Positions 2 through 64,000 of a DNA stretch of 64,000 nt are shown here, piece by piece; positions within the stretch are counted from its first letter, which is position 1, and each line of letters opens with the position of its first letter. Location of the stretch: assembly GCA_034190875.2 (NCBI GenBank), contig CM067346.1, positions 14,804,785-14,868,784 of the forward strand, read 5' to 3'. The position numbers and the translations under genes were made by a program. Below the pieces are notes generated by a model. It ran no database searches. It was not told the origin of the DNA and was given only the letters and a program-made list of their open reading frames with translations. The DNA is from Urechis unicinctus. Its lineage: Eukaryota; Annelida; Polychaeta; Xenopneusta; Urechidae.

Positions 2-988
2 TCTGAGTCGGGTTCCGAGTCTAATGCGAGCTCGTTGGTTCTTGATGGCAGCGAGGAAGTCGATGAGCAGCAATTTTTATGTGACAACTGCGCTGTTATG
101 GCAACAGAAAAAGTGTCGAAGTGCTGCTTATCGTACCCAACAATCGTGCAATACATGCAGAACTCTTTCAAATGTATCACCCAGCATCCCAGCTTTGCTT
201 CCAACTGCATGAACCAATATGAACTCGAGGCATCCAGGCACGAATTTATACAGATGGATGGCCCTATTGGTGACGAGATTTGCCCCAATGAGTAAGTCTG
301 TACTTCATTGTAATTTTACGGAGTAAATTATATACTTCCCAAGTTGCACTGAATCAAACAGCTATGAATAATGGGCTTTCATGTTCAAAAGAACATAGTA
401 TATCAACGTACATTGGTATCGGCTATAGGCATAAGGGCTTGCACTCATTATTTATTTCATCCCAAAGCCTGTCTTCATCTCTGGGCACTGTAAAACCCAT
501 CTGTTAATTTGTTTCAATTAAATAACACATGACCAAAAGTATGATTGTTGATCAGCATCTCTTTCACTTTATTCTTGCAGAAGCTATTTGTTATGTCATA
601 ACTAAAAACTATAATAGTTACTGTAAATCAACAAAACAAAACTGGTGACTAATTCCCAGGCTGTATCCGCTACAAGTCTTATGCATACAAAGTATACATG
701 GAATTTTACCCGACTGTTTAAAAATTCATATGTGACAAATCAATATAAGCCTAGTAGATGAATATTATTCCTTTCAGAGTCTTCCGCTTTCTTGCGTACA
801 GAAGATTTGTATACGTGATTTGGCATAAGCTAGGCAAGAAAAACAGGAAAGTTCTCCCTTCATGCGTTGTCACCAAAATTCGAAGCACCTTTCCTGACTT
901 CGCTGGTCATTATCGTGGCTTTAGAGAAGCTTTATGTCTGACTGGTGTTAAACCTGCACCTGTGAGTACCAACCAACAACTCTTTTGA
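2..988 (+). CDS. P2X7 ballast-domain (P2RX7_C-like) protein, unit 1, 5' end outside window
   Basis: The visible gene has two exons, 2-291 and 778-988, joined in phase 2 by a clean GTAAGT donor and a TTTCAG acceptor. The product resembles the cytoplasmic C-terminal 'ballast' domain of the P2X7 receptor, which is known in many invertebrates as a stand-alone protein. Seen in order: an acidic Ser/Glu-rich leader (SESGSESNASS), the cysteine motif LCDNC...KCC, CITQHPSF, then in exon 2 FLAYRRFV, VLPSCVVTKIRSTFP and GHYRGFREA, the family's most diagnostic block. The cysteines match those that bind zinc in P2X7. There is no ATP-binding ectodomain or membrane segment, so this is not a channel. The likely start codon lies about 65 bp before the window, judged from unit 3 (MGYQYEPLR). 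A second strong donor, GTGAGT at 962, could replace the stop at 986-988. An AATAAA at 1203 may serve as polyadenylation signal. The frame is open throughout, unlike the other two copies. Its cellular role is unknown. Confidence 0.88.
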
Positions 989-2450
989 GGGTCTTTTACA
1001 AGCAGCAGCAATGGGAGGGGGTACTTCTCTTTCACTGACAAGTACTTTTGCTCTTCTGTAGCTTGGATATTTCTCCCGAAGATGTAGCACCTGGGTCATC
1101 AGTCTGTCAATATATCCTTGAAGCACATGCCATAATGATTATATAAGTTGGTGTGATCAGCATATTTAATTAAATGATAACTGACTGAAATATATCTAAT
1201 TGAATAAATTATGCAAATAATAAATGTTACATTTAGTAAGTAGTGTTGTTGATTGAATTGCCTAAAAGCAAGTGAACATCAAACAACAGCACTGGTTCAT
1301 CGTGTCTGGCCTTGGGGAATGAAATTCCCCACTGAGCTATTCCTTGTTTGGTGACAGCCTGAGCTCGATCAGAGTTCTCGTTAAAATGAAGGACTGCTAG
1401 CAGTAGTCTACATAACAAGAAAACCTACAGTTAATGAATAATACATGTAACATAATAACTCGTAAGGAGTTTCACATAGAGGCGCATCTAAAACTATCAC
1501 CACTTTTAATCTTTACCTTGCTTCCATAGTAGCAAACGGGAAGTGGACACTCTTGGGTGCGAAGAAAATTACCACTTTATGGAACGCTTCCAAACTTGAC
1601 GTTTGCTCTGCTGGAGACAACCGATCAATATCCTTGACGAGAATCTTAATGCTGACAATAAGCTCAAGCTCTTTATGTGGTTTGGAACCTGAAACAAAAA
1701 GTTGACACCTCGATTGAATTGTACAGTTATTTAACATGAAAGGCAGTGATAAATAAATATATCAGAATTATTCTGAATCACCTAATGGGATCCACTGTCT
1801 GTCATCTAATGCTTGGTGAGTGAAGTCAAGGTACAACTTGCCATGGCCCATATGGATGTTTGTAACATGTCTCGTGACAGACAACCACTTTTCCCTTGCC
1901 AGTGCATCATCACCATGGCTCGAGGCAGCACAGAAGTTAACGTGATTGCTTATACTGCGAGCCCAATCTGTAAGAATTTGGCAATCACGCCTTCTTCCTT
2001 TCGCAATAATTTTTCTTTACCCCTGTACAGCAAAAGCATGGGTGATATTACAGATGTGACATGTGTGACTGTTGGAACAACAAGACTTGCCATAACAGGT
2101 TAAAGCAGTATGTCGTGTGGCTGTACACCAGGTATACTAAAATACCTGTACCAGCTGCATATCCAGGTGCAGCTGCCAAACTTGGCTGTGTGGCCTGGGG
2201 AGCAACAACGAGCATCTCTCCCCAGGAACAAATTCAACCCTTTCCTCTCCTCTACTAATGCGTCACGCTCTGTTGTCCATACTCTCCTTGTTGCCGGTAC
2301 AAGATAGCAATTTGCATTAGGTTATGGGTGTTAACGGATATTGTTGGAATGCTCAAATGTCTTAGCATATTTATAGTTCTCACAGCACTGCTACCACTAA
2401 ACAATATCCCACATGCTAACATTAAGTTCCCAGCTGGCATTGCCCAAAGG
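932..2450 (-). pseudogene. Transposase-like part of the THAP gene, unit 1 (DDE-type, decayed core)
   Basis: Reading down the - strand from about 2450, this follows the order of a DDE transposase-like family often joined to THAP domains: PAGNLMLACGILFSGSSAV, CYLVPATRRVW, RDARCCSPGHTAKFGSC, DMQLVQ, DWARSISNHVNFCAASSHGD, GHGKLYLDF, then exon 4 at 1517-1688 (SPAEQTSSLEAFHKVV, FAPKSVHF), exon 5 from 1407 (LLLAVLHFNENSDRAQAVT, ISFPKARH) and exon 6 ending at 932 (RPSKELLVGTHRCRFNTSQT). Exons 4 and 5 have good splice sites and join in frame. The core is broken: a frame change lies between NTHNLMQ and CYLVPA, and about ten residues are missing between GSC and DMQLVQ. The region expected to hold the next catalytic acid and the DVWH motif cannot be read. 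A 2-bp difference near 2010 shifts frame before the SNHVNF segment; unit 2 is open there. The last 57 bp are antisense to the ballast gene. Kolobok-type ancestry is possible but not established. Confidence 0.82.
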
Positions 2451-2602
2451 TAAGGCTGACTGTCTCATGTGTATGTATGTCCATTGACACAGATTTGTTG
2501 CACAACAATAAGACTCCCAATGACACGTTTCAAAACAGCCCTGGAGTCACCTCTGACACAATATATGATTATTTGCTTCTTAAATTAAAACACAATACGT
2601 AC

Positions 2603-3237
2603 CTCCACACAGGCCTGTATGCCAACTGAACATTGAGTAAAAACATCATGTTGACTGGAAGCTCGATCACAATTGTCATCTGTAGGACAGGTCTCGACAT
2701 CACTCGCAGTTATAATACTTCCATCTTCGTTAGTCATGTCATGGAGCTCCTACAGCAACCAATATAAATAGCTGTTGTAATGTACCAATAGCTCAGATGT
2801 AACAATGTGTTCACACTGGTTACAATCGATAGCCTCGTACAAACACTCAAAATGTTGACCTAGAAATTAGAATCTTGACTTGACATTAAAGACCTTACCT
2901 CAAGTCGTCTTCGTTTCCTGTAAGCGCCTCTAACTTGTTCCTCAACTCCAACATTATTGGCGTTCTCAAATAACGTGGGAACAGCATCATCATTCAGTCG
3001 GGCATTTCTTGTCAGTTCTAGTTGCTTCATGCGCTCCAGATCGACAGAAAAGGAATCACGAGTGAAGTGGTCAGAGCATAACACCGTGCTTTTCTTGGGC
3101 TCCCACGAAGATAGTCGTTTCACTATGGCTATCCAAACCTGTCGCCTTGCCTTGTCAGATTCTTTTTGCGGAAAGGTGAAAAAGCTCTTACACGATCCTT
3201 CCCCATTCTTACATCGTACAGCGCAACAGTACGGCAT
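2603..3237 (-). CDS. THAP zinc-finger exon plus acidic linker exon, unit 1
   Basis: Exon 1 (2899-3237, 113 codons) encodes a complete THAP DNA-binding domain. The zinc ligands fit C4-x4-C9 and C54-x2-H57 (CSDHF), with the conserved Trp at 35 (QVWI), a Pro in SFFTFP and the closing AVPTLF at about residue 87. THAP domains bind specific DNA and occur in transposases and in host regulators derived from them. A basic stretch (AYRKRRRLE) follows and could be a nuclear signal. A GTAAGG donor leads to exon 2 (2603-2749, 49 codons, phase 0), which is acidic and contains SQHDVFTQCSVGIQACVE, a linker style common in this family. Unit 1 keeps five residues (PQKES) that units 2 and 3 have lost. Because the downstream transposase is decayed, this may survive only as a short THAP protein; a stop or alternative 3' exon for that product is not identified. 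Confidence 0.85.
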
Positions 3238-5041
3238 ACTTCTACAAAATATCGCTAAAAGTGACGCGGCCTATCATGTAAACACGAGTGGAATCTAGTT
3301 CATAAAACTATCAGCGCATTCAGCTATCTGAGTTGCTTAGCCGAAATCACGTCACAAGTCGAGTGTTTACGGAGTTCGCCGAACGAAAAGTTGTCCTGTC
3401 TGAGCGACGTAAACCGATAATAATTAATTTCACTAATTAGAAAGGTCTCATTGCGCATTCATAGGCAGAATCTATTGCTTTGGAATGCAGACTAAAGACT
3501 GACAACGGAATATTTTTTTAATTTTTTATATCTTTAAGAAGGCAAGTGCGCAGATGCATTTTCGGCTCATGATATGTCAACCCGTGATACAGGCTGTCAC
3601 CGGTAAGCATCAACGCCAAGCTATATTTTGCACCCATGAGGATATCATAATCGCTTATCCTAGAATGATTATAGGGCAACAGGTCATTGGATACTGCGGC
3701 CAGTGTCAACATGCTACGAAGTAATCAAGCTTAATCTTCTTAAAGCAAACAGCGTTTTCTCATGTCTAAGTCTGGTGAGAGCTACTAAGCATTTACATTG
3801 TTGGTAGCCAGCGCAAATCATTTACGTAGTCACTACCTTCACACATTTGTACGATAAATGACGGGTTAGCAAATTGCCATCCATATCAGACCGTTTTTAT
3901 AATGCCATCATTGCAAATAAAACTACCGTTACATGGCATATCAATAACACTTCACTCTCTCTATGGAACAACCACTTGCGTTTCATGCATAATGCAAAAG
4001 CCTTGGAGCACGCAATGCGAATCCCGGCAGCAAAGTAGGAACTGTACTTGATTCTTATGTACAGAAGCGGTAATATTGGATTTGTCCTATAGATGAATGC
4101 GTTACATAGATGTTAAGCATTAATCTTAATCCGTACGCTGTTTCTGTCAGTATCACACGGAATTATTTTCCTTATAACTATGGAACGACTTGATTTGTCG
4201 AAACAGAACGGCTGATGGAGGAACATATCTACTGTGGCATAATACTCAAACTGATATTTGAGATTTCCCTTTTCATGTCTATCGCCTGGAGATAAGCAGT
4301 CATACAACCCAGTTTGTGATTATTACTTTTGGTCAATCGCAAAGCTTGAAGCGTATTTCGTTTAATCTTAGCTGGAATATGGTTTGAGGTATTTCCTGCG
4401 TTGGGCCCGGTTGTTTGGTGTCAATATTGCCATTATCAATACATCTTTAGTTTTGTGTATCAGGGTTATGTTGTGCGAATTTTACATGGTCACAATATCT
4501 GCAATTAAGGTTAAAGTATATCTGTCAATCACCATCGTTTCCCTGTGATAATATAGTCATTTATATTTACCATACATCATGCTGAGCTTACCGTGCTAAC
4601 AATTACTCTTAGGTGAATATTCATGATGATAACACGCAAATCGTCGTGCTGCAAATGAGCGTGCAACGCAATGCTGCCAACCGCGGCATCATTTATTCAT
4701 GCCGTTCTCAGCGACATCTGCGCGTTAAGACAGAACCACCAATGAATGTTGTTGCATTGAGCCAGCGAACTAATCAATAATATCAATCTGACAACCATCA
4801 TCTATCCCTAGTGGAATATTGAGATGATCTGTCATTGATGACATTGCGAAATTGTTCAATTCAAGTCTGGTATACCATTGGATTTGCTGTCTGTCACGTC
4901 GAGCATACTACAACCCATATGATACCCACATAATGTTCGATCCATATTCTTATTATATTATAACGACACGCATAGCCACAGATAAATCTTATTGCATTGA
5001 TTTTCTCGAAGCTCCGTTGCATTGCTTGAATGTTAACTCGA
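3238..5041. repeat. A-module flank, unit 1: noncoding DNA upstream of the THAP gene
   Basis: This AT-rich stretch recurs at about 29,607-31,422 and 38,883-40,759, and in part at 62,343-64,000. The first 200 bp, upstream of the THAP start codon, are richer in CpG and contain TTAGCCGAAATCACGTCAC at 3338-3355, a cAMP-response-like core that has a partner in inverted orientation on the far side of the gene pair. Unit 1 lacks about 65 bp present in the other units near 3920 (compare 30,301-30,366). No convincing gene was found. Confidence 0.6.
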
Positions 5042-5475: not shown

Positions 5476-6529
5476 CGAATATCATCGACCTCACTTATTG
5501 GTTATGCCACCAAGACTGCAATTGTAAAGTAGTACTAGCTAGGCAAATATATGATTCGCTGGTATGGGTACAAGCTGTTTATTATGATTTGATGAAATCA
5601 AATTGCTCGCCATGTTTTAACGTTCAAAGTGTCTGATATGAAATGTGAAATTTTGCATTGCGTTCGATAAATTCGTCATGGAACGTCTAGGTAAGCGTCG
5701 TGTTGGACTAAAACGACCATAGCAACTTTGCAAACGCACAAAAGTAAAAACAAAATATCAGATCACTGTTTATCTATTAATCGCCATTAACTCAATTTGA
5801 CTCAGAATCAATTTCGTAAGCCACTGAAGAACTGACCTCATTGCTATTTGAATGTCACCATGATTCCTAGTTCCTCTACAAACCTTCAGTATACGGTGAA
5901 AATCGCCGGTCTGTCGGACCGAGAGGAAAACAAATAGAAAAGGTCCGACCATGTGGTGCATCACGCGGGACCGACGGTAGGTTGCGCATGCACAGAAAGT
6001 GTGAAAACATTAAAGTCGGAAAATTAAGAATAACGGGGATTGAAAATACGCCGGCTAAGATCTTCAACTAGTAATGACCCTGAACCTACCAAGAACTCAT
6101 ACATGAGTACCGTACGCCAGGAATAGAGTTATTACAAGGTCATTACTTTAATCAATAACAGAGAAAGCTGCTTCTGACAAAGCGGATCAAGACTGATATA
6201 TCCTGAAAGAAGAATATAGCTGCGGAATAATCCGCCATAGCAACATTATGGAAGTGCATCCATCATGGCGAATAATTGTCGGGATAAAACGTCTCTTCGT
6301 ATCTCACATCACACCATATTTGTTTGTTAAAATATTGATAAAAAATCAGGTCCGTCTTAAATCTAACAGGTCTGGGTAAAGATTGTGGCCGGTCAGATCT
6401 GATGTCTGACACTAAATGAGTACTCCGCCTGTACTAATTGTGTACGAAAGGAATAATGCTGTCCTTTGTGAGAAATTACCATCTCTTCAATTGCAGTAAA
6501 TTAGACATGACTGCGCATATGTCGCATTT

Positions 6530-6770
6530 CAGCAATCCCGACATCTGTGTACACGTCTCTTCAAAGCGTCCCCCTGTATGTCCGGGGGTTGAATAGGCCC
6601 ATTGTATCCTCCTGCATGTCGTAAGCGGCGACTAATAGGGGGCAACCTGTTGGCTGTGGGTTGCGACTTGTGTCGGTGAACAATGGGATCCAGATGGTTG
6701 AGTGGGGAGGTCTCTGCGAGGGCCATATCTGCAACACACCACTATGGCCTGGATTTCACCTAGCTAGTAG
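6530..6770 (-). repeat. SINE-like element, unit 1 copy
   Basis: Read on the - strand it contains AGTCGCC-CTTACGACATGC, then a stretch ending in a run of Gs (GGGGGACGC). That core recurs in SINEs of molluscs and other invertebrates, possibly the Meta-domain type; I cannot confirm the family without a library. Flanking text includes GTTGCAGATATGGCC and GTCGCAACCCAC. The copy at 44,930-45,200 has the better core (GTCGCCTCTTACGACATGC). This copy lacks about 28 bp near 6760. It is not an independent insertion: both lie at the same site in the B module. Confidence 0.6.
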
Positions 6771-12679: not shown

Positions 12680-12798
<119 letters not shown>

Positions 12799-15725: not shown

Positions 15726-16452
15726 ATGTTGAGCAATTTGATTAATGCTCATATTTCGACTGTGTAATAAAGCTTGGCACAAGCGAGTGCCTAATTTACC
15801 TTTGCTACGTTCTTGATGTATGTTGACTGCCCACATATTCTATCCCATCTGCTGTCATGTTATTATATTCTGATGTCAATCATGTTCTAACGTACTGTTA
15901 TCTTATCCCGGCAAATTAATATTGAACAATGAACTACAGATAAACTTGACTTTTCAGACACAGAGGTTTGGATAGCATAATGCCATAGCATTTACATTAT
16001 TTCCAGTTTATTCATCATTTGGAAAAGTTCATTGAAGACTAGTGAGTGTCATCGAAGATTGCTCATTCATAGTTTTAATTTCCATACACAAGCAATGACG
16101 ACAATTTGTGGTGTGTGAAAGCATCAGTAACAATTTGTCCACGGCCCTAAAACGGCTCAAGCAAAGTCCAGTTAATACACCACATACTCAAGCTATCATT
16201 AAAGGATTTATAGTCTTAGGCATTTTCTATTCCTGGCCTAATTTGTAAACAATTAGTCAGATTTATATACACCAGACCCTGAGCATGAACACGTGGAATT
16301 TTCTAATATTTGACCAGAACATCAGAAGGAATGCTGTCTAAAATCATACAAAAGCCTACATTATAAAGTATGGAACTGCCAATAATGCTATGCTAATCCA
16401 AGATGTACAGAATGTATGTGTGATGCCTAGTTGATGATGATTGTCATTTATT

Positions 16453-16680
16453 GATACACGGAATAAAATACATCGTTTCGGTTTTGCATATGATACAGGG
16501 AGTAAATATATATCATTTCGGCATTGCTTATGATACAATGAGTAAATATATATCATTTCGGCATTGCTTATGATACAGGGAGTAAATATATATCATTTCG
16601 GCATTGCTTATGATACAATGAGTAAATATATATATCATTTCGGCATTGCTTATGATACAGGGAGTAAATATATATCATAC
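16453..16680. repeat. 40-bp minisatellite, about 5.7 copies
   Basis: The period is 40 bp with core GATACAGGGAGTAAATATAT followed by ATCATTTCGGCATTGCTTAT. Copies alternate between CAGGGAG and CAATGAG forms, giving an 80-bp higher-order period. One copy has an extra TA. The matching site in unit 3 (55,769-55,850) holds about two copies, so growth happened after the units separated. Confidence 0.88.
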
Positions 16681-22801: not shown

Positions 22802-22909
<108 letters not shown>

Positions 22910-26230: not shown

Positions 26231-26398
26231 GCGCATCTCTTCTAAACGCAGTTGGGGTTTTTTTCCGCGTGAAGATGCTGTCACGCATGAATGAATCTCG
26301 CTGACACATATTATCCTTTCCATTCGTTTTTTTATAATATTTCGTCATCCGATTAAGACTGTGAGACGCCGTTAAACGAGGTCAGCATACGCACAGCA
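26231..26398 (+). promoter_or_regulatory. Upstream region of ballast gene, unit 2 (truncated)
   Basis: The sequence from about 26,235 (TAAACGCAGTTGGGG) to the start codon matches 35,508-35,662. The CpG-rich part with TGACGTCA seen further upstream in unit 3 is missing here, so this copy has probably lost part of its promoter. Confidence 0.4.
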
Positions 26399-27319
26399 AT
26401 GGGTTATAAATATGAACCGCTGAGAGTCCCACAAAACTGTTAAAGAATTGATACAGAGTAAGAATCTGAGTCGGGTTCCGAGTCTAATGCGAGCTTGTTG
26501 GTTCTTGATGGCAGCGAGGAAGTCGATGAGCAGCAATTTTATGTGACAACTGCGCTGTTATAGCAACAGAAAAAAAGTCGAAGTGCTGCTTATCGTACCC
26601 AACAATCGTGCAATACATGCAGAACTCTTTCAAATGTATCACCCAGCATCCCAGCTTTGCTTCCAACTGCATGAACCAATATGAACTCGCGGCATCCAGG
26701 CACGAATTTATACAGATGGATGGCCCTATTGGTGACGAGATTTGCCCCAATGGGTAAGTCTGTACTTCATTGTAATTTTACGGAGTAAATTATATACTTC
26801 CCAAGTTGCACTGAATCAAACAGCTATGAATAATGGGCTTTCATGTTCAAAAGAACATAGTATATCAACATACATTGGTATCGGCTATAGGCATAAGGGC
26901 TTGCACTCATTATTTATTTCATCCCAAAGCCTGTCTTCATCTCTGGGCACTGTAAAACCCATCTGTCACTGTTTCAATTAAATAACACAAGAACAAAAGT
27001 ATGATTGTTGATCAACATCTCTTTCACTTTATTCTTGCAGAAGCTATTTGTTATGTCATAACAAAAAAACTATAATAGTTACTGTAAATCAACAAAACAA
27101 AACTGGTGACTAATTCCCAAATCATTATAAGCCTAGTAGATGAATATTATTCCTTTCAGAGTCTTCCGCTTTCTTGCGTACAGAAGATTTGTATACGTGA
27201 TTTGGCATAAGCTAGGCAAGAAAAACAGGAAAGTTCTCCCTTCATGCGTTGTCACCAAAATTCGAAGCACCTTTCCTGACTTCTCTGGTCATTATCGTGG
27301 CTTTAAAGAAGCTTTATGA
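26399..27319 (+). pseudogene. P2X7 ballast-domain gene, unit 2, broken
   Basis: The start codon is at 26,399 (MGYKYEPLRVPQNC) and is followed at once by a stop where unit 3 has CAA. Later in exon 1 a T-run is one base shorter (CAATTTTATGTG) and an A-run before GTCGAAG is altered, both changing frame. The donor reads GGGTAAGT at 26,754. Exon 2 starts at 27,160 after TTTCAG and is open through VLPSCVV and GHYRGFKEAL, ending at TGA 27,317-27,319, earlier than unit 1 because CTGTCTG is CTGACTG. The family and exon plan are the same as in unit 1. A full-length product is not possible, but exon 2 could be included in other transcripts. Confidence 0.85.
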
Positions 27320-28830
27320 CTGACTGGTGTTAAACCTACACATGTAAGTACCAACCAACGACTCTTTTGAGGGTCTTTCACGAGCAGCAGCAATGGGAGG
27401 GGGTACTTCTCTTTCACTGACAAGTACTTTTGCTCTTCTGTAGCTTGGATATTTCTCCCCCGAGATGTAGCACCTGGGTCATCAGTCTGTCAATATATCC
27501 TTGAAGCACATGACATAATGATTATATAAGTTGTTGTGATCAGCATATTTAATTAAATGATAACTGACTGAAATATATCTAATTGAATAAATTATACAAA
27601 TAATAAATGTTACATTTAGTAAGTAGTATTGTTGATTGAATTGCCTAAAAGCAAGTGAACATCAACCAACAGCACTGGTTCATCGTGTCTGGCCTTGGGG
27701 AATGAAATTCCCCACTGAGCTATTCCTTGTTTGGTGACAGCCTGAGCTCGATCAGAGTTCTCGTTAAAATGAAGGACTGCTAGCAGTAGTCTACATAACA
27801 AGAAAACCTACAGTTAATGAATAATACATGTAACGTAATAACTCGTAAGGAGTTTCACATAAAGGCGCATCTAAAACTATCACCACTTTCAATCTTTACC
27901 TTGCTTCCATAGTTGCAAACGGGAAGTGGACACTCTTGGGTGCGAAGAAAATTACCACTTTATGGAACGCTTCCAAACTTGACGTTTGCTCTGCTGGTGA
28001 CAACCGATCAATATCCTTGACGAGAATCTTACTGCTGACAATAAGCTCAAGCTCTTTATAAGGTTTGGAACCTGAAACAAAAAGTTGACACCTCGATTGA
28101 ATTGTACAGTTATTTAACATGAAAGGCAGTGATAAATAAATATATCAGAATTATTCTGAATCACCTAATGGGATCCACTGTCTGTCATCTAATTCTTGGT
28201 GAGTGAAGTCAAGGTACAACTTGCCATGGCCCATATGGATGTTTGTAACATGTCTCGTGACAGACAACCACTTTTCTCTTGCCAGTGCATCATCACCATG
28301 GCTCGAGGCAGCACAGAAGTTAACGTGATTGCTTATACTGCGAGCCCAATCTGTAAGAATTTTGCAATCACGCCTTCTTCCTTTCGCAATAATGTTTTTC
28401 TTTACCCCTGTACAGCAAAAGCATGGGTGATATTACAGATGTGACATGTGTGACTGTTGGAACAACAAGACTTGCCATAACAGGTTAAAGCAGTATGTCG
28501 TGTGGCTGTACACCAGGTATACTAAAATACCTGTACCAGCTGCATATCCAGGTGCAGCTGCCAAACTTGGCTGTGTGGCCTGGGGAGCAACAACGAGCAT
28601 CTCCCCCCAGGAACAAATTCAACCCTTTCCTCTCCTCTACTAATGCGTCACGCTCTGTTGTCCATACTCTCCTTGTTGCCGGTACAAGATAGCAATTTGC
28701 ATTAATTTATGGGTGTTAACGGATATTGTTGGAATGCTCAAATGTCTAAGCATATTGATAGTTCTCACAGCACTGCTACCACTAAACAATATCCCACATG
28801 CTAACATTAAGTTCCCAGCTGGCATTGCCC
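27314..28830 (-). pseudogene. Transposase-like part of the THAP gene, unit 2, broken
   Basis: The order of segments is the same as in unit 1. It shares the frame change after NTHNLMQ and the gap before DMQLVQ, so both are older than the duplication. It is better preserved in one place: around 28,390 two extra bases keep KKNIIAKGRRRDC in frame with DWARSISNHVNFCAAS. Exon 4 (27,900-28,071) is open with donor and acceptor kept. Exon 5 ends with NSINNTTY as in unit 1. Exon 6 is shifted by one extra base in the C-run near 27,460, so no long frame survives there. Confidence 0.8.
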
Positions 28831-28987
28831 CAATGTAAGGCTTACTGTCTCATGTGTATGTATGTCCATTGACACAGATTTGTTGCACAACAACAAGACT
28901 CCCAATGACACGTTTCAAAACAGCCCTGGAGTCACATCTGACACAATATATGATTATTTGCTTCTTAAATTAAAACACAATACGTAC

Positions 28988-29606
28988 CTCCACACAGGCC
29001 TGTATGCCAACTGAACATTGAGTAAAACATCATGTTGACTGGAAGCTCGATCACAATTGTCATCTGTAGGACAGGTCTCGACATCACTCGCAGTTATAAT
29101 ACTTCCATCTTCGTTAGTCATGTCATGGAGTACCTACAGCAACCAATATAAATAGCTGTTGTAATGTACCAATAGCTCAGATGTAACAATGTGTTCACAC
29201 TGGTTACAATCGATAGCCTCGTACAAACACTCAAAATGTTGACATAGAAATTAGAATCTTGACTTGACATTAAAGACCTTACCTCAAGTCATCTTCGTTT
29301 CCTGTAAGCGCCTCTCGCTTGTTCCTCAACTTCAACATTATTGGCGTACTCAAATAACGTGGGAACAGCATCATCATTCAGTCGGGCATTTCTTTTCAGT
29401 CCTAGTTGCTTCATGCGCTCCGGATCGATAGAAAAGGAATCACGAGTGAAGTGGTCAGAGCAAAACACCGTGCTTTTCTTGGGCTCCCACGAAGATAGTC
29501 GTTTCACTGTGGCTATCCAAACCTGTCGCCTTGCCTTGTGAAAGGTGAAAAAGCTCTTACCCGATCCTTCCCCATTCTTACATCCAACAGCGCAACAGTA
29601 CGGCAT
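28988..29606 (-). CDS. THAP zinc-finger exon plus linker exon, unit 2
   Basis: Exon 1 (29,283-29,606, 108 codons) is open and keeps C4, C9, the downstream CSDHF ligands and AVPTLF. It lacks five codons after SFFTF, reading FTFHKARR, so the usual Pro of the THAP fold is gone. This in-frame loss is shared with unit 3. Exon 2 (28,988-29,133) is 146 bp rather than 147 because an A-run is one base short near 29,023, which shifts its frame. The THAP exon may still be translated; the long product is not possible. Confidence 0.75.
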
Positions 29607-31422
29607 ACTTCTACAAAATATCGCTAAAAGTTACGCGGCCTATCATGTAAACACGAGTGGAATCTAGTTCATAAAACTATCAGCGCGTTCAGCTATCTGA
29701 GTTGCTTAGCCGAAATCACGTCATAAGTCGAGTGTTTACGGGGTGTGCCGAGCGAAAAGTTGTCCTGTCTGAGCGCCGTAAACCGATAAGAAAATAATTA
29801 ATTTCACTAATTAGAAAGGTCTCATTGCGCATTCATAGGCAGATCTATTGCTTTGGAATACAGATAACGACTGACAACGGAATATATTTTTTTTTTTATC
29901 TTAAAGAAGGCAAGTTCGCAGATGCATTTTCGGCTCATGATATGTCAACCCGTGATACAGGCTGTCACTGGTAAACATCAACGCCAAGCTATATTTATCA
30001 CCCATGAGGATTCTAAGATATCATAATCGCTTATTCTAGAATGATTATAGGGCAACAGGTCATTGGATACTGCGGCCAGTGTCAACATGCTACGAAGTAA
30101 TCAAGCTTAATCTTCTTAAAGCAAACAGCGTTTCCTCATGTCTTAGTCTGGTGAGAGTTACTAAGCATTAACATTGTTGGTAGCCAGCGCAAATCATTTA
30201 CGTAGTCACTACCTTCACACATTTGTACGATAAATAACGCGTTAGCAAATTGCCATCCATATCAGACCGTTTTTATAATGCCATCATTGCAAATAAAACT
30301 ACCATATTTTCATGGCTCGCTCCATTAATGCACAATACACCGATGCGTACCTTGCAGCACTGCAATAGCGCTTCCGTTACATGGCATATCAATAACACTA
30401 CACTTCACTCCCTCTATGGAACCACCACTTGCGTTTCATGCATAATGCAAAAGCCTTGGAGCACGCAATGCGAATCCCGGCAGCAAAGTAGGAACTGTAC
30501 TTGATGCTTATGTACAGAAGCGGTAATATTGGATTTGTCCTATAGATATATGCGTTACATAGATGTTAAGCATTAATCTTAATCCGTACGCTGTTTCTGT
30601 CAGTATCACACAGTATCCGGCTGATGGAGGATAATACTCAAACTGATATTTGAGATTTCCCTTTTCATGTCTATCGCCTGGAGATAAGCAGTCGTACAAC
30701 CCAGTTTGTGATTATTACTTTTGATCAATCGCAAAGCTTGAAGCGTATTTCGTTTAATCTTAGCTGGAATATGGTTTGAGGTATTTCCTGCGTTGGGCCC
30801 GGTTGTTTGGTGTCAATATTGCCATTGTCAATACATCTTTAATTTTGTGTATCAGGGTTATGTTGTGCGAATTTTACTTGGTCACAATATCTGCAATTAA
30901 GGGTTAAGTATATCTGTCAATCAGCAACGTTTCCCTGTGATAATATAGTTATTTATATTTACCATACATCATGCTGAGCTTACCGTGCTAACAATTACTC
31001 TTAAGTGAATATTCATGATGATAACAAGCAAATCGTCGTGCTGCAAATGTGCGTGCAACACAATGCAGCCAACCGCGGCTTCATTAATTCATGCCGTTCT
31101 CAGCAAAATCTGCACGTTTAACAGAACCACCAATGAATGTTGTTGCCTTGAGTCAGCGAACTAATCAATACTATCATACAGACAGCCATCATCTATCCCT
31201 AGTGGAATATTGAGATGATCTGTCATTGATGACATTGCAACATTGTTCAATTCAAGTCTGGATTTGCTGTCTGTCACGTCGAGCATATTACAACCAGTAT
31301 GATACCCACATAATGTTCGATCCATATTCTTATTATATTATAACGACACGCATAGCCACAGATATAATCTTATTGCATTGATTTTCACGAAGCTCCGTTG
31401 CATTGCTTGAATGTAAACTCGA
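29607..31422. repeat. A-module flank, unit 2
   Basis: It is nearly identical to 38,883-40,759 and close to 3238-5041. The near part carries the TTAGCCGAAATCACGTCAT motif seen upstream of the THAP gene. The remainder is AT-rich DNA with no convincing gene. A stretch of about 50 bp present in units 1 and 3 around the ATTATTTTCCTTATAACTATGG sequence is missing near 30,615. Confidence 0.6.
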
Positions 31423-35004: not shown

Positions 35005-35662
35005 GTTAACATCGAAAAGGTGTGAACAATCCATCTGAGATTGTATTTATCCTAATATGACATTTACATTCACAACCCATTTTTAGCCCAGTTAGTATAT
35101 TTTCATTCTGCTGCGTAATGCACACTGGACTCTAGATCAATATATCAAAACGATCTATTTATCATATAACAGTAATTAACAACTGCAGGACAAGTAGCCT
35201 AACCAAAGGCACAATTTTGACCATACACATATTGACTCTGATCATCGAAGAGAGCTCGCTGTACCACCTTGTGCTTGATGATCAACTACTTAAAGGTCAA
35301 AATTAACATTTTTGCGAACAAACGCCACCGAAAACGTTTTAAAAAAACGCAATAATGAAAATCCGACAGGTACAGAATTGGTGAGCATTCTAGTTAAAGA
35401 GAAAATCGGCCGCGAACTTTTGGGAACTCGAAGCAACTCGACAGAAATCCTCCAGGCCATTTTGCCCCGTCCAGTCGCTAGGGGCGTACCGCGTGACGTC
35501 ATCTCGGCTAAAAGCAGTTGGGGTTTTACCGCGTGAAGATGCTGTCACGCGTGATTGAATCTCGCTGACACATATTATCCTTTCCATTCGTTTTTTTATA
35601 ATATTTCGTCATCCGATGCAGACTGTGAGACGCCGTTAAACGAGGTCAGCATCCGCACAGCA
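35005..35662 (+). promoter_or_regulatory. Upstream region of ballast gene, unit 3
   Basis: The first 270 bp are AT-rich and partly match 61,930-61,998. From about 35,290 the DNA becomes CpG-richer and contains the palindrome TGACGTCA at 35,494-35,501 followed by TCTCGGCTAAAAGCAGTT. The start codon is at 35,663 in the context CAGCAATGG. There is no clear TATA box. This part would be the promoter of the ballast gene; in unit 2 most of it is missing. It also has inverted similarity to the region upstream of the THAP gene. Confidence 0.45.
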
Positions 35663-36597
35663 ATGGGTTATCAATATGAACCGCTGAGAGTCCCACAAAA
35701 CTGTCAAAGAATTGATACAGAGTCAGAATCTGAGTCGGGTTCCGAGTCTAATGCGAGCTCGTTGGTTCTTGATGGCAGCGAGGAAGTCGATGAGCAGCAA
35801 TTTTTATGACAACTGCGCTGTTATGGCAACAGAAAAAGTGTAGAAGTGTTGCTTATCGTACCCAACAATCGTGCAATACATGCAGAACTCTTTCAAATGT
35901 ATCACCCAGCATCCCAGCTTTGCTTCCAACTGCATGAACCAATATGTACTCGAGGCATCCAGGCACGAATTTATACAGATGGATGGCCCTATTGGTGACG
36001 AGATTTGCCCCAATGAGTAAGTCTGTACTTCATTGTAATTTTACGGAGCAAATTATATACTTCCCACGTTGCACTGAATCAAACAGCTATGAATAATGGG
36101 CTTTCATGTTCAAAAGAACATAGTATATCAACATACATTGGTATCGGCTATAGGCATAAGGGCTTGCACTCATTATTTATTTCATCCCAAAGCCTGTCTT
36201 CATCCCTGGGCACTGTAAAACCCATCTGTTAATTTGTTTCAATTAAATAACACATGAACAAAAGTATGATTGTTGATCAGCATCTCTTTCACTTTATTCT
36301 TGCAGAAGCTATTTGCTATGTCATAACAAAAAAACTATAATAGTTACTGTAAATCAACAAAACAAAACTGGTGACTAATTCCCAGGCTGCCCTCTCCTTA
36401 TACAGTATATGCGTTTCTCTGTACATCAACACGTTACTTTGTATCCGCTACATGTCTTATGCATACAAAGTGTACAAGAAATATTACCGGGCTGGTAAAT
36501 ATTCATATGTGACAAATCATTATAAGCCTAGTAGATGAATATTATTCCTTTCAGAGTCTTCCGCTTTCATTATCGTGGCTTTAGAGAAGCTTTATGA
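35663..36597 (+). pseudogene. P2X7 ballast-domain gene, unit 3, broken
   Basis: This copy shows the probable true N-terminus: MGYQYEPLRVPQN followed by an acidic Ser/Glu tract (TESESESGSESNASS), as in other stand-alone ballast proteins. The frame breaks at EEVDEQQFL, where two bases are lost relative to unit 1 and TGA follows. A further stop lies where unit 1 reads GTGTCGAAG. Exon 2 has lost about 130 bp between TTCCGCTTTC and ATTATCGTGG, removing the LPSC block. An extra stretch of roughly 80 bp in the intron near 36,390-36,470 partly matches unit 1. A functional ballast product is not possible. Confidence 0.85.
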
Positions 36598-38105
36598 CTG
36601 ACTGGTGTTAAACCTGCACCTGTGAGTACCAACCAACAACTCTTTTGAGGGTCTTTTACCAGCAGCAGCAATGGGAGGGGGTACTTCTCTTTCACTGACA
36701 AGTACTTTTGCTCTTCTGTAGCTTGGATATTTCTCCCGAAGATGTAGCACCTGGGTCATCAGTCTGTCAATATATCCTTGAAGCACATGACATAATGATT
36801 ATATCAGTTGTTGTGATCAGCATATTTAATTAAATGATAGCTGACTGAAATATATCTAATTGAATAAATTATGCAAATAATAAATTTTACATTTAGTAAG
36901 TAGTGTTGTTGATTGAATTGCCTAAAAGTAAGTGAACATCAACCAACAGCACTGGTTCACCGTGTCTGGCCTTGGGGAATGAAATTCCCCACTGAGCTAT
37001 TCCTTGTTTGGTGACAGCCTGAGCTCGATCAGAGTTCTCGTTAAAATGAAGGACTGCTAGCAGTAGTCTACATAACAAGAAAACCTACAGTTAATAAATA
37101 ATACATGTAACATAATAACTCGTAAGGAGTTTCACATAGAGGCGCATCTAAAACTATCACCACTTTTAATCTTTTCCTTGCTTCCATAGTAGCAAACGGG
37201 AAGTGGACACTCTTGGGTGCGAAGAAAATTACCACTTTATGGAACGCTTCCAAACTTGACGTTTGCTCTGCTGGAGACAACCGATCAATATCCTTGACGA
37301 GAATCTTACTGCTGACAATAAGCTCAAGCTCTTTATGTGGTTTGGAACCTGAAACAAAAAGTTGACACCTCGATTGAATTGTACAGTTATTTAACATGAA
37401 AGGCAGTGATAAATAAATATATCAGAATTATTCTGAATCACCTAATGGGATCCACTGTCTGTCATCTAATTCTTGGTGAGTGCAGTCAAGGTACAACTTG
37501 CCATGGCCCATATGGATGTTTGTAACATGTCTCGTGACAGACAACCACTTTTCCCTTGCCAGTGCATCATCACCATGGCTCGAGGCAGCACAGAAGTTAA
37601 CGTGATTGCTTATACTGCGAGCCCAATCTGTAAAAATTTGGCAATCACGCCTTCTTCCTTTCGCAATAATTTTTCTTTACCCCTGTACAGCAAAAGCATG
37701 GGTGATATTACAGATGTGACATGTGTGACTGTTGGAACAACAAGACTTGCCATAACAGGTTAAAGCAGTGTGTCGTGTGGCTGTACACCAGGTATACTAA
37801 AATACCTGTACCAGCTGCATATCTAGGTGCAGCTGCCAAACTTGGCTGTGTGGCCTGGGGAGCAACAACGAGCATCTCCGCCCAGGAACAAATTCAACCC
37901 TTTCCTCTCCTCTACTAATGCGTCACGCTCTGTTGTCCATACTCTCCTTGTTGCCGGTACAAGATAGCAATTTGCATTAGGTTATGGGTGTTAACGGATA
38001 TTGATGGAATGCTCAAATGTCTTAGCATATTTATAGTTCTCACAGCACTGCTACCACTAAACAATATCCCACATGCTAACATTAAGTTCCCAGCTGGCAT
38101 TGCCC
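36592..38105 (-). pseudogene. Transposase-like part of the THAP gene, unit 3, broken
   Basis: The same segments occur in the same order as in unit 1. It shares the older damage (frame change after NTHNLMQ, gap before DMQLVQ) and the 2-bp shift before SNHVNF. Exon 4 starts at 37,348 and is open (SPAEQTSSLEAFHKVV), but its donor has changed from GGTAAAG to GGAAAAG, so reading runs on into the intron. Exon 5 (from about 37,067) and exon 6 (36,592-36,786, ending RFNTSQS) are open. The stop lies at the end of the ballast gene on the other strand, as in unit 1, with a shorter overlap. Confidence 0.8.
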
Positions 38106-38262
38106 CAAGGTAAGGCTGACTGTCTCATGTGTATGTATGTCCATTGACACAGATTTGTTGCACAACAACAAGACTCCCAATGACACTTTTCAAAACAGCC
38201 CTGGAGTCACCTCTGACACAATATATGATTATTTGCTTCTTAAATTAAAACACAATACGTAC

Positions 38263-38882
38263 CTCCACACCGGCCTGTATGCCAACTGAACATTGAGTAA
38301 AAACATCATGTTGACTGGAAGCTCGATCACAATTGTCATCTGTAGGACAGGTCTCGACATCACTCGCAGTTATAATACTTCCATCTTCGTTAGTCATGTC
38401 ATGGAGTACCTACAGCAACTAATATAAATAGCTGTTGTAATGTACCAATAGCTCAGATGTAACAATGTGTTCACACTGGTTACAATCGATAGCCTCGTAC
38501 AAACACTTAAAATGTTGACCTAGAAATTAGAATCTTGACTTGACATTAAAGACCTTACCTCAAGTCGTCTTCGTTTCCTGTAAGCGCCTCCCGCTTGTTC
38601 CTCAACTTCAGCATTATTGGCGTACTCAAATAACGTGGGAACAGCATCATTATTCAGTCGGGCATTTCTTTTCAGTCCTAGTTGCTTCATGCGCTCCTGA
38701 TCGACAGAAAAGGAATCACGAGTGAAGTGGTCAGAGCAGAACACCGTGCTTTTCTTGGGCTCCCACGAAGATAGTCGTTTCACTGTGGCTATCCAAACCT
38801 GTCGCCTTGCCTTGTCAAAGGTGAAAAAGCTCTTACCCGATCCTTCCCCATTCTTACATCCAACAGCGCAACAGTACGGCAT
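38263..38882 (-). CDS. THAP zinc-finger exon plus linker exon, unit 3
   Basis: Exon 1 (38,559-38,882, 108 codons) encodes a THAP domain with the C4-x4-C9 and C-x2-H ligands and AVPTLF, reading FTFDKARR where unit 1 has five more residues. Exon 2 (38,263-38,409, 49 codons) is open and in phase, and both splice sites are kept (GTAAGG donor, CTGTAG acceptor). Of the three copies this and unit 1 keep both exons readable. As elsewhere the transposase part behind it is decayed. Confidence 0.8.
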
Positions 38883-40759
38883 ACTTCTACAAAATATCGC
38901 TAAAAGTTACGAGGCCTATCATGTAAACACGAGTGGAATCTAGTTCATAAAACTATCAGCGCGTTCAGCTATCTGAGTTGCTTAGCCGAAATCACGTCAT
39001 AAGTCGAGTGTTTACGGGGTGTGCCGAGCGAAAAGTTGTCCTGTCTGAGCGCCGTAAACCGATAAGAAAATAATTAATTTCACTAATTAGAAAGGTCTCA
39101 TTGCGCATTCATAGGCAGATCTATTGCTTTGGAATACAGACTAACGACTGACAACGGAATATATTTTTATTTATATCTTAAAGAAGGCAAGTTCGCAGAT
39201 GCATTTTCGGCTCATGATATGTCAACCCGTGATACAGGCTGTCACTGGTAAACATCAACGCCAAGCTATATTTATCACCCATGAGGATTCTAAGATATCA
39301 TAATCGCTTATCCTAGAATGATTATAGGGCAACAGGCCATTGGATACTGCGGCCAGTGTCAACATGCTACGAAGTAATCACTTAATCTTCTTAAAGACAA
39401 CAGCGTTTCCTCATGTCTAAGTCTGGTGAGAGTTACTAAGCATTTACATTGTTGGTAGCCAGCGCAAATCATTTACGTAGTCACTACCTTCACACATTTG
39501 TACGATAAATGACGCGTTAGCAAATTGCCATCCATATCAGACCGTTTTTATAATGCCATCATTGCAAAAAAACTACCATATTTTCATGGCTCACTCCATT
39601 AATGCACAATACACCGACGCGTACCTTGCAGCACTGCAATAGCGCTTCCGTTACATGGCATATCAATAACACTACACTCTGCTCCCTCTATGGAACCACC
39701 ACTTGCGTTTCATGCATAATGCAAAAGCCTTGGAGCACGCAATGCGAATCCTGGCAGCAAAGTAGGAACTGTACTTGATTCTTATGTACAGAAGCATTAA
39801 GATTGATTTGTCCTATAGATGAATGCATTACATAGATGTTAAGCATTTATCTTAATCCGTACGTTGTTTCTGTCAGTATCACACAGAATTATTTTCCTTA
39901 TAACTATGGAACGACTTGATATGTCGAAACAGAACGGCTGATGGAGGAACATATCTACTTTGGCATAATACTCAAACTGATATTTGAGATTTCCCTTTTC
40001 ATTTCTATCGCCTGGAGATAAGCAGTCATACAGCCCAGTTTGTGATTATTACTTTTGGTCAATCGCAAAGCTTATTTCGTTTAATCTTAGCTGGAATATG
40101 GTTTGATGTATTTCCTGCGTTGGGCCCGGTTGTTTGGTGTCAATATTTCATAGTCAATACATCTTTAATTTTGTGTATCAGGGTTATGTTGTGCGAATTG
40201 TATTTGGTCACAATATCTGCAATTAAGGGTTAAGTATATCTGTCAATCAGCAACGTTTCCCTGTGATAATATAGTTATTTATATTTACCATACATCATGC
40301 TGAGCTTACCGTGCTAACAATTACTCTTAAGTGAATATTCATGATGATAACAAGCAAATCGTCGTGCTGCAAATGTGCGTGCAACACAATGCAGCCAACC
40401 GCGGCTTCATTTATTCATGCCGTTCTCATCAACATCTGCACGTTTAACAGTTCCACCAATGAATGTTATTGCCTTGAGCCAGCGAACTAATCAATACTAT
40501 CATACAGACAACCATCATCTATCCCTAGTGGAATATTGAGATGATCTGTCATTGATGACATTGCGACATTGTTCAATTCAAGTCTGTTATACCATTGGAT
40601 TTGCTGTCTGTCACGTCGAGCATACTACAACCAGTATGATACCCACATAATGTTCGATCCATATTCTTATTATATTATAACGACACGCATAGCCACAGAT
40701 ATAATCTTATTGCATTGATTTTCACGAAGTTCCGTTGCATTGCTTGAATGTAAACTCGA
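38883..40759. repeat. A-module flank, unit 3
   Basis: It carries the TTAGCCGAAATCACGTCA motif at 38,982-38,999 and is otherwise AT-rich DNA shared with the other units. No convincing gene is seen. Confidence 0.6.
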
Positions 40760-43559: not shown

Positions 43560-43743
<184 letters not shown>

Positions 43744-44929: not shown

Positions 44930-45200
44930 ACAAGCCCGTCATCTGTGTAAACGTCTCTTCAAAGCGTCCCCCTGTGGGTTCTGGGGTAGAATAGGACCAC
45001 TGTATCCTCCTGCATGTCGTAAGAGGCGACTAATAGGGGGCAACCTGTTGGCCGTGGGTTGCGACTCATGTCGGTGAACAACGGGATCCAGATGGTTGAT
45101 TGGGGAGGTCTCAGCGAGGGCCATATCTGCAACACACCACTATGGCCTGGATTTCACCTAGATTAGAGGCTGGAATGGCCTGGTCCAGTCAACCGGCTAG
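44930..45200 (-). repeat. SINE-like element, unit 3 copy
   Basis: On the - strand it has the core GTCGCCTCTTACGACATGC then AGGAGGATACAGTGGTCCTA and a stretch with CCACAGGGGGACGC. It is fuller than the copy at 6530-6770, with about 28 bp more near 45,165-45,195. Family assignment needs a repeat library. Confidence 0.62.
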
Positions 45201-52514: not shown

Positions 52515-52529
52515 CTCCCCCCCCCCCCC
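52515..52529. repeat. Poly-C run
   Basis: An uninterrupted run of about 13 Cs lies within the B module where unit 1 has ACTACCGCGCCCTAGG. Length may be unreliable in assembly. Confidence 0.8.
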
Positions 52530-52982
52530 TAGGTTGTTTAAAGAAAAATACACCGTATATATTTCATACACTGCCGGACAATGATTACAATTCATCATTG
52601 CCATTAGTGAAGATATATTTATTCAAGATTTCAAATACTTCGACATTGCCTCATTTTGCTGCATATGCAGGCGATTGGTCCATTCAAATGCTGGCTGAAA
52701 ACAATCGGGTAACGAAGGTTCTGTTGTATCGACTTGATACCCAATGAAGTCATCAACACGGAAAACTCACAGGAAATTTATAATGCGGTAATAAAATCTC
52801 TACGTGACAGCATAACGAGGCCTCTTCGCCCTCCATGCGGTGCCTTCATTAATCAGTTCACCCGCATACAGGAAGAAAGCAAAAAATAAAGCTGTTACAC
52901 ATTAAGTAGCGCAGTGATTATTACAAGGCAACAATTCAAACACCGTAAGTTGCAGTAGAATAACGTCTGTGTGCTGAATTAT

Positions 52983-60305: not shown

Positions 60306-61998
60306 GTGTATGAAATAGCGCCATTGTTGAATTGTGGTTCCCGGCTAAAGTCGTTCAATGGAACTTACGTTCTAATCTATGGTTACACACAATTGGTTGA
60401 CAATATAACCCCAACATGATAGTTTTTTGTTTGCACCACACCGGTGTGTAGTTGTGATCACAATTCTGAATTGTGTGTGTGTGTAAGTAGAATGTTCACC
60501 GAACATTGTCACGACACAAATTTGCCGGTAATCAAATATGGAATATCCAGCATTAATATGGAGACGATAGGTTGGAGAAGGCACGGGCTTCTGTAGCTTG
60601 ACTTTTAAATTATTATCATTTCCCAAAACAATGATCCCAGCTACACTTACATGGCTACATGCATGGTACGACCCACACTGTTGTCTCGCTTCATAATTGG
60701 AATCAGCATGTGTAGTGTGCATGTCGTGCCGCAGTGCGTGTCTAAGGTTTCGGTAAGAGTGAATTCTTACTGTGTGAAATGATCAGCAACCCATTGGACA
60801 TATATCAGATGAATATGACAGTCGATGATATAACAAGCATGTCATATGGCATATGAATCAATATGCAATGACATAATCTGTAATGACATAATGGACAGGT
60901 GAATCAACGAAGAAGTAGATCGGCGGTTTCTACATGCATTGGCGTTACATTTTCACACAAGTTGAAAAAAGGAATCTAAAGCTCTGGTTCGGCTCTTTAT
61001 ATTTATCGATGTACTCGCCTGATATTGCGTTTATCCATGGCATATTGTTGATATATTCGCATTGTTACTTGAGGTGCAACCAAGTCAAGCGATGGCTCGG
61101 CTGCATGTGACTGCATATATATAACCCTGTCCACTTGTGTCACATGTCATACACAGGCTACCTTGTATCGTAAATAGCGTAAAAGACACGAAACAAAGAA
61201 GTCAATTACCTCTACCAGCGTCCCCACAGATAGGACATCCGCGACAACATTTGAGTCTACCGAAATACTGTTTATGGTGTATATACGCCATGCTACATAT
61301 GGACACTGCTGATCAAAGACAACATACACAGAAATGTTTCCATGGCTAACCACCTGCGCCATGTAAGCTGAATTGTTTAATCATTGTAGATTGTATGAGC
61401 AGCACCAATATACAAGCACTGACATCGCCAATTCGCATGTGCATGTGCGACTCCTACTGAGCATGCTGCATAAAGGTGGATCTGTTGGGAACATGTGCAA
61501 TACGCTGTGCTACTGCTCTGTTGCTGCTCTAGGTTAATATGAAAATCATGCTACCACTGAAGGTTTACACGCGCAAGTGTTCTTAATAATGTGACAGCAA
61601 ATATCGAACGCCCCAATCATGCAGTACTGCAAGGTATCAGTTGCATCGTCTGGCAGCAGTGTATTTTGAGCCGTTATTGCCTGCAGCGGCGTATTCCATA
61701 CAACCATCAAGACATTACAGCCTTTGATTCCAAATTTTAACAATTAATTGATGACTAATTGATAATAGCGCTAAACACGCGATATGGCAACTGCTGTCCT
61801 CACACCCCCCTCCCCCATCCCCCCCCCCCCCGATTATGCGTATTACGTTATCCAAAATATAGAATTGATTTGATCCGACATCAGCTCTGTCTATTAGGTT
61901 CAATCCTTGGAAAGCATGCGCTTCAGTTAACATCGGAAAGGTGTGAACAATCCATCTGAGATTTAATATATCCGAATACGACATTTTCATTCACAGTC
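60306..61998. repeat. D module, unit 3 (diverged)
   Basis: It follows the order of D1 but with lower identity and insertions, including 60,920-61,380 and a TGTGTGTG run near 60,475. A C-rich run at 61,804-61,831 (mostly C with a few T and A) interrupts the CCTCACAC...CCCCGATT sequence. Similarity to unit 3's own upstream region (35,005-35,081) ends near 61,998. No gene is seen. Confidence 0.65.
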
Positions 61999-62342
61999 AA
62001 ATTTTTGGCCCTGTTTGCAGCGAACCATGAACGAATAAAGAGTTTCCATCCTGAATATAGCGGATAAAAACCTTCCATTGTCGTTCACTACTCGCAATGT
62101 AAGTAAAATATTTCTGCATATATACATAACAATTTTCTCATAGGTAAGCTTCTTGATATTTTTGTACAATGCATCATTGTGACGACACATATCTGTTACG
62201 CAACGGTTTTTTTTCAAAAATCGGATTACGCTCCAACCTAATCAACTTGTTGTCGCCCAAATATTATCTCTGCTGATGGGCCTGCTGATCGAAGTTTTGC
62301 AGTCGGTGTAATCTGTTACACCGATATCTGAGATTGTTTACA
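61999..62342. other. Unrelated stretch replacing the gene pair in unit 4
   Basis: These 344 bp have no match to the roughly 4.1 kb at the same place in unit 3. It holds a perfect 9-bp hairpin at 62,303-62,324 and otherwise nothing recognisable. Confidence 0.5.
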
Positions 62343-64000
62343 GCTTACTATGACATGTCAACCTGTGACACAGGCTGTTATTGGTAAACATCAACGCCCA
62401 GCTATATTTATCAGCTAAGATATCATAACCTCGTATCGTAGAATGATTATAGAGCAAAAGGTCATAACATAATGCGGGCAGTGTCAACATGCAACGAATA
62501 AATCATGCTTAATGTTCTTAAAGCAAACAGCGTTTCCTCGCGACCACGATATTTTGTCTTACCTTGCTTGATGGCTTTTATATGCAGTCTTGAACATCAC
62601 CAATCTGCGAAGGTAACAATTCATGTGAAGACAAACCATGCGGCATAGTAAACCAACGGCGTGATTGTTTGTACAACAACGTTCCTGTGCATTGAGATAC
62701 TATTAATTGCATTACTTGTGGTAATAGGAAACGGAAACGCTATTTCCGGGCAGCATAATTTTCCTTACGAATGAATATGTGATAGAACATACCTTGTTTC
62801 CCTATGCATTATTATATCCCCCTGGCTACAACAAGAGGATAGAATAATGCATAGGGAAACAAGGTACGTTCCAATCGTTTGCTAGGTAAATCATCAGAGC
62901 CTACCTGGATACTAAAGAGCGACATTATGCAGTCAACATCAAGGCAATCAAAGCCTGGTTAGAGCTTTCTAAGCAGCCATTGTTGGTAGCCAGCGCACAT
63001 CATTTACGAAGTCACTGCCTTCACATATTTGTACGATAAATCACGGCATCATCAGTCTCGTATATATTCGATTTAACCCACAGACGGCCGCTGTGTATAT
63101 GTTATATTAATCTCATGAGCAATAAATAATGATTGTTCACAGCCAAAAAAACTACCGCATTTTCAAAGCCTACTCCATTGAAGCACAAGAAAGCGATGCG
63201 TATCTTGCAGCACTGCAAAAGCGCTTCCGTTACATGGCATATCAATAACACTTTACTCTGCTACTTTTATGCAACCACCACTTGCGTGTCATGCATAATG
63301 CAAAAGCCCTAGAGCCCGTAGTGCGAATCCCGGCAGCAAAGTTGGAACTGTACGTGACGCTTATGTACAGAAGCGGCAAGATTAGATTTGTCCTATAGAT
63401 GAATCCGTTACAAAGAAGTTAAGCATTAATCTTAATTTGTCCGCTGTTTCTGTCAGCATCACATTATTTTTTTTATAACTACGGAACGACTTGATATGTC
63501 GTTTGTGATTTCCCTTTTTATGTCAATCGCCTGGCGATTAGTAGTCACAAAATCCAGCTTGTGATTATTGCTTTTGGTTTCGCAAGACTTGAAGCGTATT
63601 GCGATTAATCTTAGCTGGAATATGGTTTGAAGTATTTGTTGTGTTGGGCACGGTTGTTTGATGTCAGTATTTTCATTGGCAATACATCTTTAGATTTGTG
63701 TGTATCAGGGTTATATTGTGCAAATTCTACATGGTCACACTATCCGCAATTAACGCTTTAGTATAGCTGTCAATCTGTGATAATATAGTTATTTACATTT
63801 ACCATACATTATACTGAGCATATGGTGCTAACAATTACTCTTAAGTGAATATTCATGATGATAACAAGCAAATCGTCGTGCTGCAAATGTGCATGCAACA
63901 CAATGCAGCCAACCGCGGCATCATTTATTCATGCCGTTCTCAGCGCCATCTGCACGTTAAAACAGAACCACCAATGAATGTTGTTGCCTTGAGCCAGCGA
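62343..64000. repeat. A-module flank, unit 4 (runs off the window)
   Basis: It resumes similarity to 39,208 onward (ATGTCAACC-GTGA-ACAGGCTG) and follows it to the end of the window, matching about 40,485. About 410 bp at 62,540-62,950 are specific to this unit. The gene pair is absent. Divergence is higher than between units 1-3. Confidence 0.75.
62787..62869. repeat. Long near-perfect hairpin, about 33-bp arms
   Basis: The left arm contains ACCTTGTTTCCCTATGCATT and the right arm its reverse complement (AATGCATAGGGAAACAAGGT). Pairing extends to about 33 of 35 positions with a loop of roughly 14 bases. It lies inside the unit 4-specific stretch and could be a foldback element or a precursor-like hairpin. 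Confidence 0.8.

Follow-up and report, generated by a model that had tools for sequence, protein, structure and literature searches.

A ballast-domain gene and a THAP transposase gene facing each other in probable Kol0-type Kolobok elements of the Urechis unicinctus genome

In a 64-kb stretch of the Urechis unicinctus genome (C5:14804785-14868784, here called the window; 1.19 Gb of genome was searched), a gene with a P2X7 ballast domain and a gene with a THAP domain face each other. Are they neighbours by chance, or are they two genes of one mobile element? The first-pass annotation took the pair as a possible two-gene DNA transposon. This was right, and the kind was published in 2022: Kol0-lineage Kolobok transposons encode a DDD/E transposase and a second protein, KolX, which has the P2X7 cytoplasmic ballast fold (Kojima & Bao 2022, Mob DNA 13:24, PMC9587614, in the passages used here). 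We consider, with a probability of about 95%, that the two genes belong together as those of a cut-and-paste DNA transposon of the Kol0 type of Kolobok.

The tandem array in the window

Self-alignment of the 64-kb window shows a tandem array of segmental duplicates. The ballast/THAP pair of unit 1 (Table 1) is found again near 26.5-29.9 kb and 35.3-39.2 kb (units 2 and 3). In unit 1 the P2RX7_C model (PF20478) matches the frame 776-985(+), and the THAP model (PF05485) matches the frame 2863-3270(-), with AVPTLF in frame. These matches and the recurrence in units 2 and 3 confirm the first description of ballast and THAP/DDE genes in convergent orientation in three units. The unit alignments, at about 96% identity, cross the transposase-side element end into the flank, so that units 1-3 descend from a single insertion which was duplicated. 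On these alignments the window pairs are one insertion copied and not three independent pairings.

Table 1. Positions of element features in the window
Feature	Position	Strand	Remarks
KolX (ballast) exon 1, unit 1, 5' end cut by window start	2..291	+	open frame; 88.7% to L047 KolX exon 1
Splice donor of KolX exon 1	after 291		GTAAGT
KolX exon 2	778..988	+	PF20478, E 1.9e-8
Transposase C-terminal exon, overlaps KolX 3' end	935..1116	-	open frame; homologous to L044 C-terminal exon
Transposase exon with FNEN motif, 3' edge approximate	1287..1407	-	92.5-95% to L044-L047
Transposase E exon, presumed catalytic Glu (SSLEAFH)	1517..1688	-	96.5% to L044-L047
Transposase exon, H..C..H zinc-finger region	1782..2022	-	84-88% to L044-L047
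D1-exon remnant, D1 Asp codon retained	2165..2555	-	aligns only with L044 2778-3169; split over two frames
Transposase exon 2	2603..2749	-	splice sites; resembles L044 exon 2
Transposase exon 1, THAP domain	2899..3237	-	PF05485, E 2.6e-16; GT donor at 2898
TTAA flank, transposase-side terminus of unit 1	3534..3537	.	element ends 3533, AGATATAAAA reading inward
Unit 2 element copy	26234..29900	.	truncated at the KolX-side end; frameshift in KolX exon 1; core deleted
TTAA flank of unit 2	29901-29904		
Unit 3 element copy, both ends present	35294..39177	.	TTAA 35290-35293 and 39178-39181
Fourth unit, both insertion flanks, no element	61667..62539	.	left-flank matches 77%, right-flank 81-83%

Units 1-3 are without DNA equivalent to positions 2092-2778 and 3169-3555 of L044, a dispersed copy of a related family (below). 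The deletions take out transposase exon 3, the D1 exon at its two edges and the entire D2 exon; in unit 1 the D2 exon and its neighbours are gone beside the D1 remnant. The D1 Asp codon is kept in all three units, in a frame-broken remnant (GRDARCCSPG in unit 1). As the transposase core had been deleted before the tandem duplication of the insertion, the window element is unable to move by itself. KolX exon 1 is frameshifted in unit 3 as in unit 2, and in unit 3 codons 1-38 of the 70 in KolX exon 2 are missing as well. In unit 1 the stop of the relatives is lost and the frame continues to TGA at 986-988, while L044 ends earlier. The left end of unit 1 falls before window base 1, and the second end of unit 3 has lost its terminal A (TTAA followed by GATAT).

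The fourth unit is diverged, with about 335 unalignable bases between the flanks where the others have the 3.9-kb element. A clean TTAA junction, as in an empty site, was looked for at its insertion point and not found. The unit is consistent with a duplicate predating the insertion.

The window contains other repeated DNA. A large segmental duplication (5494-26237 / 43898-61924) consists of blocks 73-92% identical, in which no gene was recognised, and together with the 9.3-kb units it forms a nested tandem array. A 40-bp tandem repeat at 16452-16678 (5.7 copies) and 55762-55844 (2.1 copies) lies inside the duplicated blocks, and perfect long AT dinucleotide runs (12682-12795, 22810-22903 and 43563-43739) lie at or near their breakpoints. 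The segment 6590-6760, with GCATGTCGTAAGCGGCGACTAA, presumably resembles a SINE core that is conserved in molluscs and other animals.

Element families, termini and gene layout

Family W (L044-L047) has copies on C17, C1, C15 and C8 which are 97.6-99.5% mutually identical over about 5.04 kb, carry both genes and lose similarity abruptly at their ends; its identity to the window blocks is 86-96%. L044 and L047 have TTAA followed by AGGTCAAAA (beginning AGGTCA) at both ends in inverted orientation, and L045 and L046 have a TTAA terminus at one end. Family K1 (L048, L049) has TTAA followed by AGGTCAACT at both ends. In family C, TTAA is followed by AGATCA at both ends of L042 and L043 and at one end of L041, and in family A by AGAGGCTG (AGAGGC) at the one end seen. 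Three hallmarks of Kolobok are present: TTAA at both ends (L042, L043, L044, L047, L048, L049 and window unit 3), inverted 5'-RR (AG) termini, with AGGTCA and AGATCA at both ends, and the THAP domain (PF05485).

The convergent layout is common to families W, C, A and B. In L044 the transposase stop TAG (4718-4720) abuts the opposite-strand KolX stop (4721-4723), and in family A six bases separate the convergent stops. The exon edges examined in the L044 transposase have GT-AG junctions, the junction after the FNEN exon being provisional.

We rejected piggyBac, which also uses TTAA and has termini other than 5'-RR, because AG termini and a THAP domain are present here; piggyBac is not known to have a THAP domain. 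A suspected separate "2-kb THAP+KolX family" proved to be family C, at about 93-94% identity. Beside the family C element in L043, an open frame of 541 aa (6140-7762, minus strand) looks like retrotransposon pol by eye. Another THAP repeat family (L001, L002 and L003; open frames of 531, 287 and 531 aa) has copies on three chromosomes that agree at about 99% over 2.2 kb, and the window KolX exons had no match within 1.5 kb at these three loci.

Pairing of the two genes across the genome

The first look at the genome gave 2591 P2RX7_C and 3056 THAP candidates. When 150 of each were scored, the PF20478 and PF05485 matches made one pair within 5 kb and three further pairs at 29-35 kb; the lists pair rarely because only 150 of 2591 and 3056 were scored, and specific exon queries were needed. 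The window transposase E exon gave 1477 first-look candidates and KolX exon 2 gave 2688, of which 150 each were scored.

Among the matches listed, a KolX exon lies within 1.2 kb of 16 of the 18 window-like transposase exons (at least 90% identity), 15 times convergent and once on the same strand. The 18 include the three window units, two of them paired; outside the window 14 of 15 listed exons are paired, on 10 chromosomes. The unpaired ones are C8:28405871 and window unit 3, which has lost part of KolX exon 2. In the other direction, 14 of 22 listed KolX exons at 86% or higher have a listed exon of the transposase or THAP kind no more than 5 kb away, in 13 cases convergent. Over all 150 scored KolX matches, a listed partner lies no more than 5 kb away in 32 cases, 31 of them convergent. 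Random placement of the 150 paired 0.32 on average and 2 at maximum, in 200 crude trials with one length for all chromosomes. Each partner list holds 150 scored matches, so unpaired loci may have partners outside the matches listed.

Transposase pieces are found within 1.5 kb of 27 of the 30 best-scoring P2RX7_C loci (L009-L038). With pieces of families W, K1 and A alone, 15 of the 30 have a match, and four family B pieces, taken from L009 and L013, lift this number to 27. Twelve of the 27 were found solely with pieces from the B loci themselves, 11 of these by one B piece, and since B pieces carry X at stops, some B matches may be due to shared DNA that is not translated. L011 and L012 coincide with L039 and L040, and the A pieces come from L040. 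L017, L028 and L029 had no transposase piece within 1.5 kb with all W, K1, A and B pieces tried. The transposase strand is opposite to the ballast gene in 26 of the 27 loci, the exception being L015, where the two genes share a strand. At the 30 loci, none of 10 control pieces from the window matched. Some of the loci lie in local clusters, on C10 and C16; L033/L034/L038 and L032/L035 are grouped in this way.

The first-pass annotation had proposed to look for convergent pairing at unrelated loci and for inverted termini around the pair. In this genome the pairing recurs on 10 chromosomes, nearly always convergent, and the elements are TTAA-flanked with inverted termini. It had also named two outcomes that would speak against the idea, pairing only in this array and ballast genes elsewhere without a linked transposase; the 14 paired exons outside the window and the 27 linked ballast loci go against both.

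The two proteins and the competing explanations

In families W and K1 the transposase has the motifs GDxR (D1), TDxH (D2), DVWH and SSLE (E) in order, and families A and B have GDxR and TDxH. Between D2 and E, W and K1 carry SNHVYxC...RHVxNxH, a candidate zinc finger. The DDE, C/DxxH and zinc-finger assignments were made by motif and are provisional, and Pfam matches to the core do not reach the curated cut-offs (Mutator-like E 5e-4, MULE E 0.016). PF20478 matches KolX in families A, B and W, and a profile of the family A and B KolX proteins matched PDB P2X7 chains (E 9.9e-22, residues 468-592). In family A a Cys-rich upstream exon joins KolX in frame through GT-AG sites (six loci, four distinct places), and no Pfam domain matched this N-terminal exon. 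An AlphaFold model of KolX from a 14-row alignment had pLDDT 42. Scans of viral and bacterial contigs with the KolX alignment gave 28 and 76 pattern matches, of which none was confirmed as a relative, and an ncbifam search with three element proteins gave no match.

The searches and alignments establish the anatomy, dispersal, linkage and conservation of the element. The element lies at TTAA, has 5'-AG termini and carries convergent genes. At one end is the transposase gene, the THAP DNA-binding exon first, then the putative DDE core and the C-terminus; at the other is KolX, in which the ballast domain of P2X7 makes up the C-terminal half. The transposase would move the element, and KolX may be a zinc-binding accessory protein which can be supplied in trans. 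The window holds one core-deleted insertion multiplied by tandem segmental duplication.

That a host ballast gene family lies near THAP transposons by chance in one array has hardly any probability left. It would suit the three window pairs, which are copies of one event, but it is refuted in this genome by the linkage on 10 chromosomes and at 27 of the 30 top ballast loci, and by ballast domains inside transposon termini in near-identical dispersed copies. It is also very unlikely that THAP and KolX in the window have been domesticated as host genes and are under selection in the tandem array. The THAP and KolX exons of unit 1 are open, and in the comparison of W with the window KolX exon 2 has a dN/dS of 0.20-0.23 and the E exon one of 0.07; such ratios, however, also arise on an active element lineage before insertion, and the KolX frameshifts in units 2 and 3, the deletion in unit 3 and the loss of the relatives' stop in unit 1 speak against selection.

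The first annotation left open whether the ballast protein is an accessory or a cargo of the element. Between W and C, KolX exon 2 has saturated silent sites (estimate above 1) with pN about 0.25 (52 codons, rough), and the E exon has pN 0.09 (51 codons, rough). Because the KolX protein has stayed conserved across families with saturated silent sites, accessory fits better and cargo fits worse. Passenger cargo without a role in transposition is rather unlikely, though family K1 gives it some ground: L048 and L049 share an apparent early stop in the first KolX exon and the truncation of the second, L048 has open transposase exons, and about 40 E exons among the matches listed score as those of L048 and L049 do (93.5 bits), the KolX state being known from these two copies. 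Against cargo are the constraint on the KolX protein, the convergent gene arrangement shared by W, C, A and B, and the report of KolX in the Kol0 lineage of several phyla (in the passages used of PMC9587614). K1 could also be served in trans.

Family C presents the reverse case. Six copies were fetched and three tested (L050-L052); in these the THAP, E, C-terminal and KolX exons matched, and no D1, D2 or zinc-finger exon match was found. An open transposase with a broken KolX in K1, and KolX without the catalytic core in C, suggest that both proteins can act in trans. It is quite unlikely, on our estimate, that K1 and C are complementing parasites, each dependent on the other or on intact W. 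If that were true, KolX would be an essential diffusible transposition factor, and the P2X7 ballast domain would have had an ancestral role in DNA transposition.

In the passages of PMC9587614 used here, Kol0 Kolobok shares with the present elements the DDE transposase, the ballast-like KolX, the TTAA target and the 5'-RR (AG) termini; by motif, candidates for C/DxxH and for a zinc finger lying between D2 and E are present as well, and we see no categorical difference there. The abutting convergent stops, the Cys-rich KolX exon of family A and the KolX-broken and core-less families are possibly new relative to those passages. Xenopus XKol Kolobok (PMC6004289) is similar in TTAA, AG termini and THAP and, by motif, in DDE and H2CH, whereas the part of that paper used here mentions no second protein. 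Rump et al. 2020 (PMC7016195), in the sections used, give one or few (<10) ballast/ZCD genes per species and no large families, in contrast with the 2591 first-look candidates (150 scored) in one genome here. The domain of P2X7 ballast and nanor/ZCD proteins treated there is homologous to that of KolX. That paper also mentions an Ixodes protein which has a THAP domain (printed "TAHP") at the N-terminus and a ZCD at the C-terminus, and the word stem "transpos" is absent from the main text of the paper. Among the papers listed for P2X7 ballast, nanor or KolX together with Kolobok or transposons were, besides PMC9587614 and PMC7016195, only the reviews PMC9319628 and PMC10192458.

Judged from the sequences, the window pairs are members of a kind already in print, in a genome with very many candidates. 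PMC9587614, in the same passages, assigns animal ballast-like proteins to Kolobok families and derives the P2X7 tail domain and nanor from KolX. The families lacking one gene or the other are natural material for probing the role of KolX. For one animal genome it is confirmed that the abundant "orphan" genes with a P2X7 ballast domain belong to transposons, and gene annotations and evolutionary accounts in which they figure as relatives of host receptors have to be corrected.
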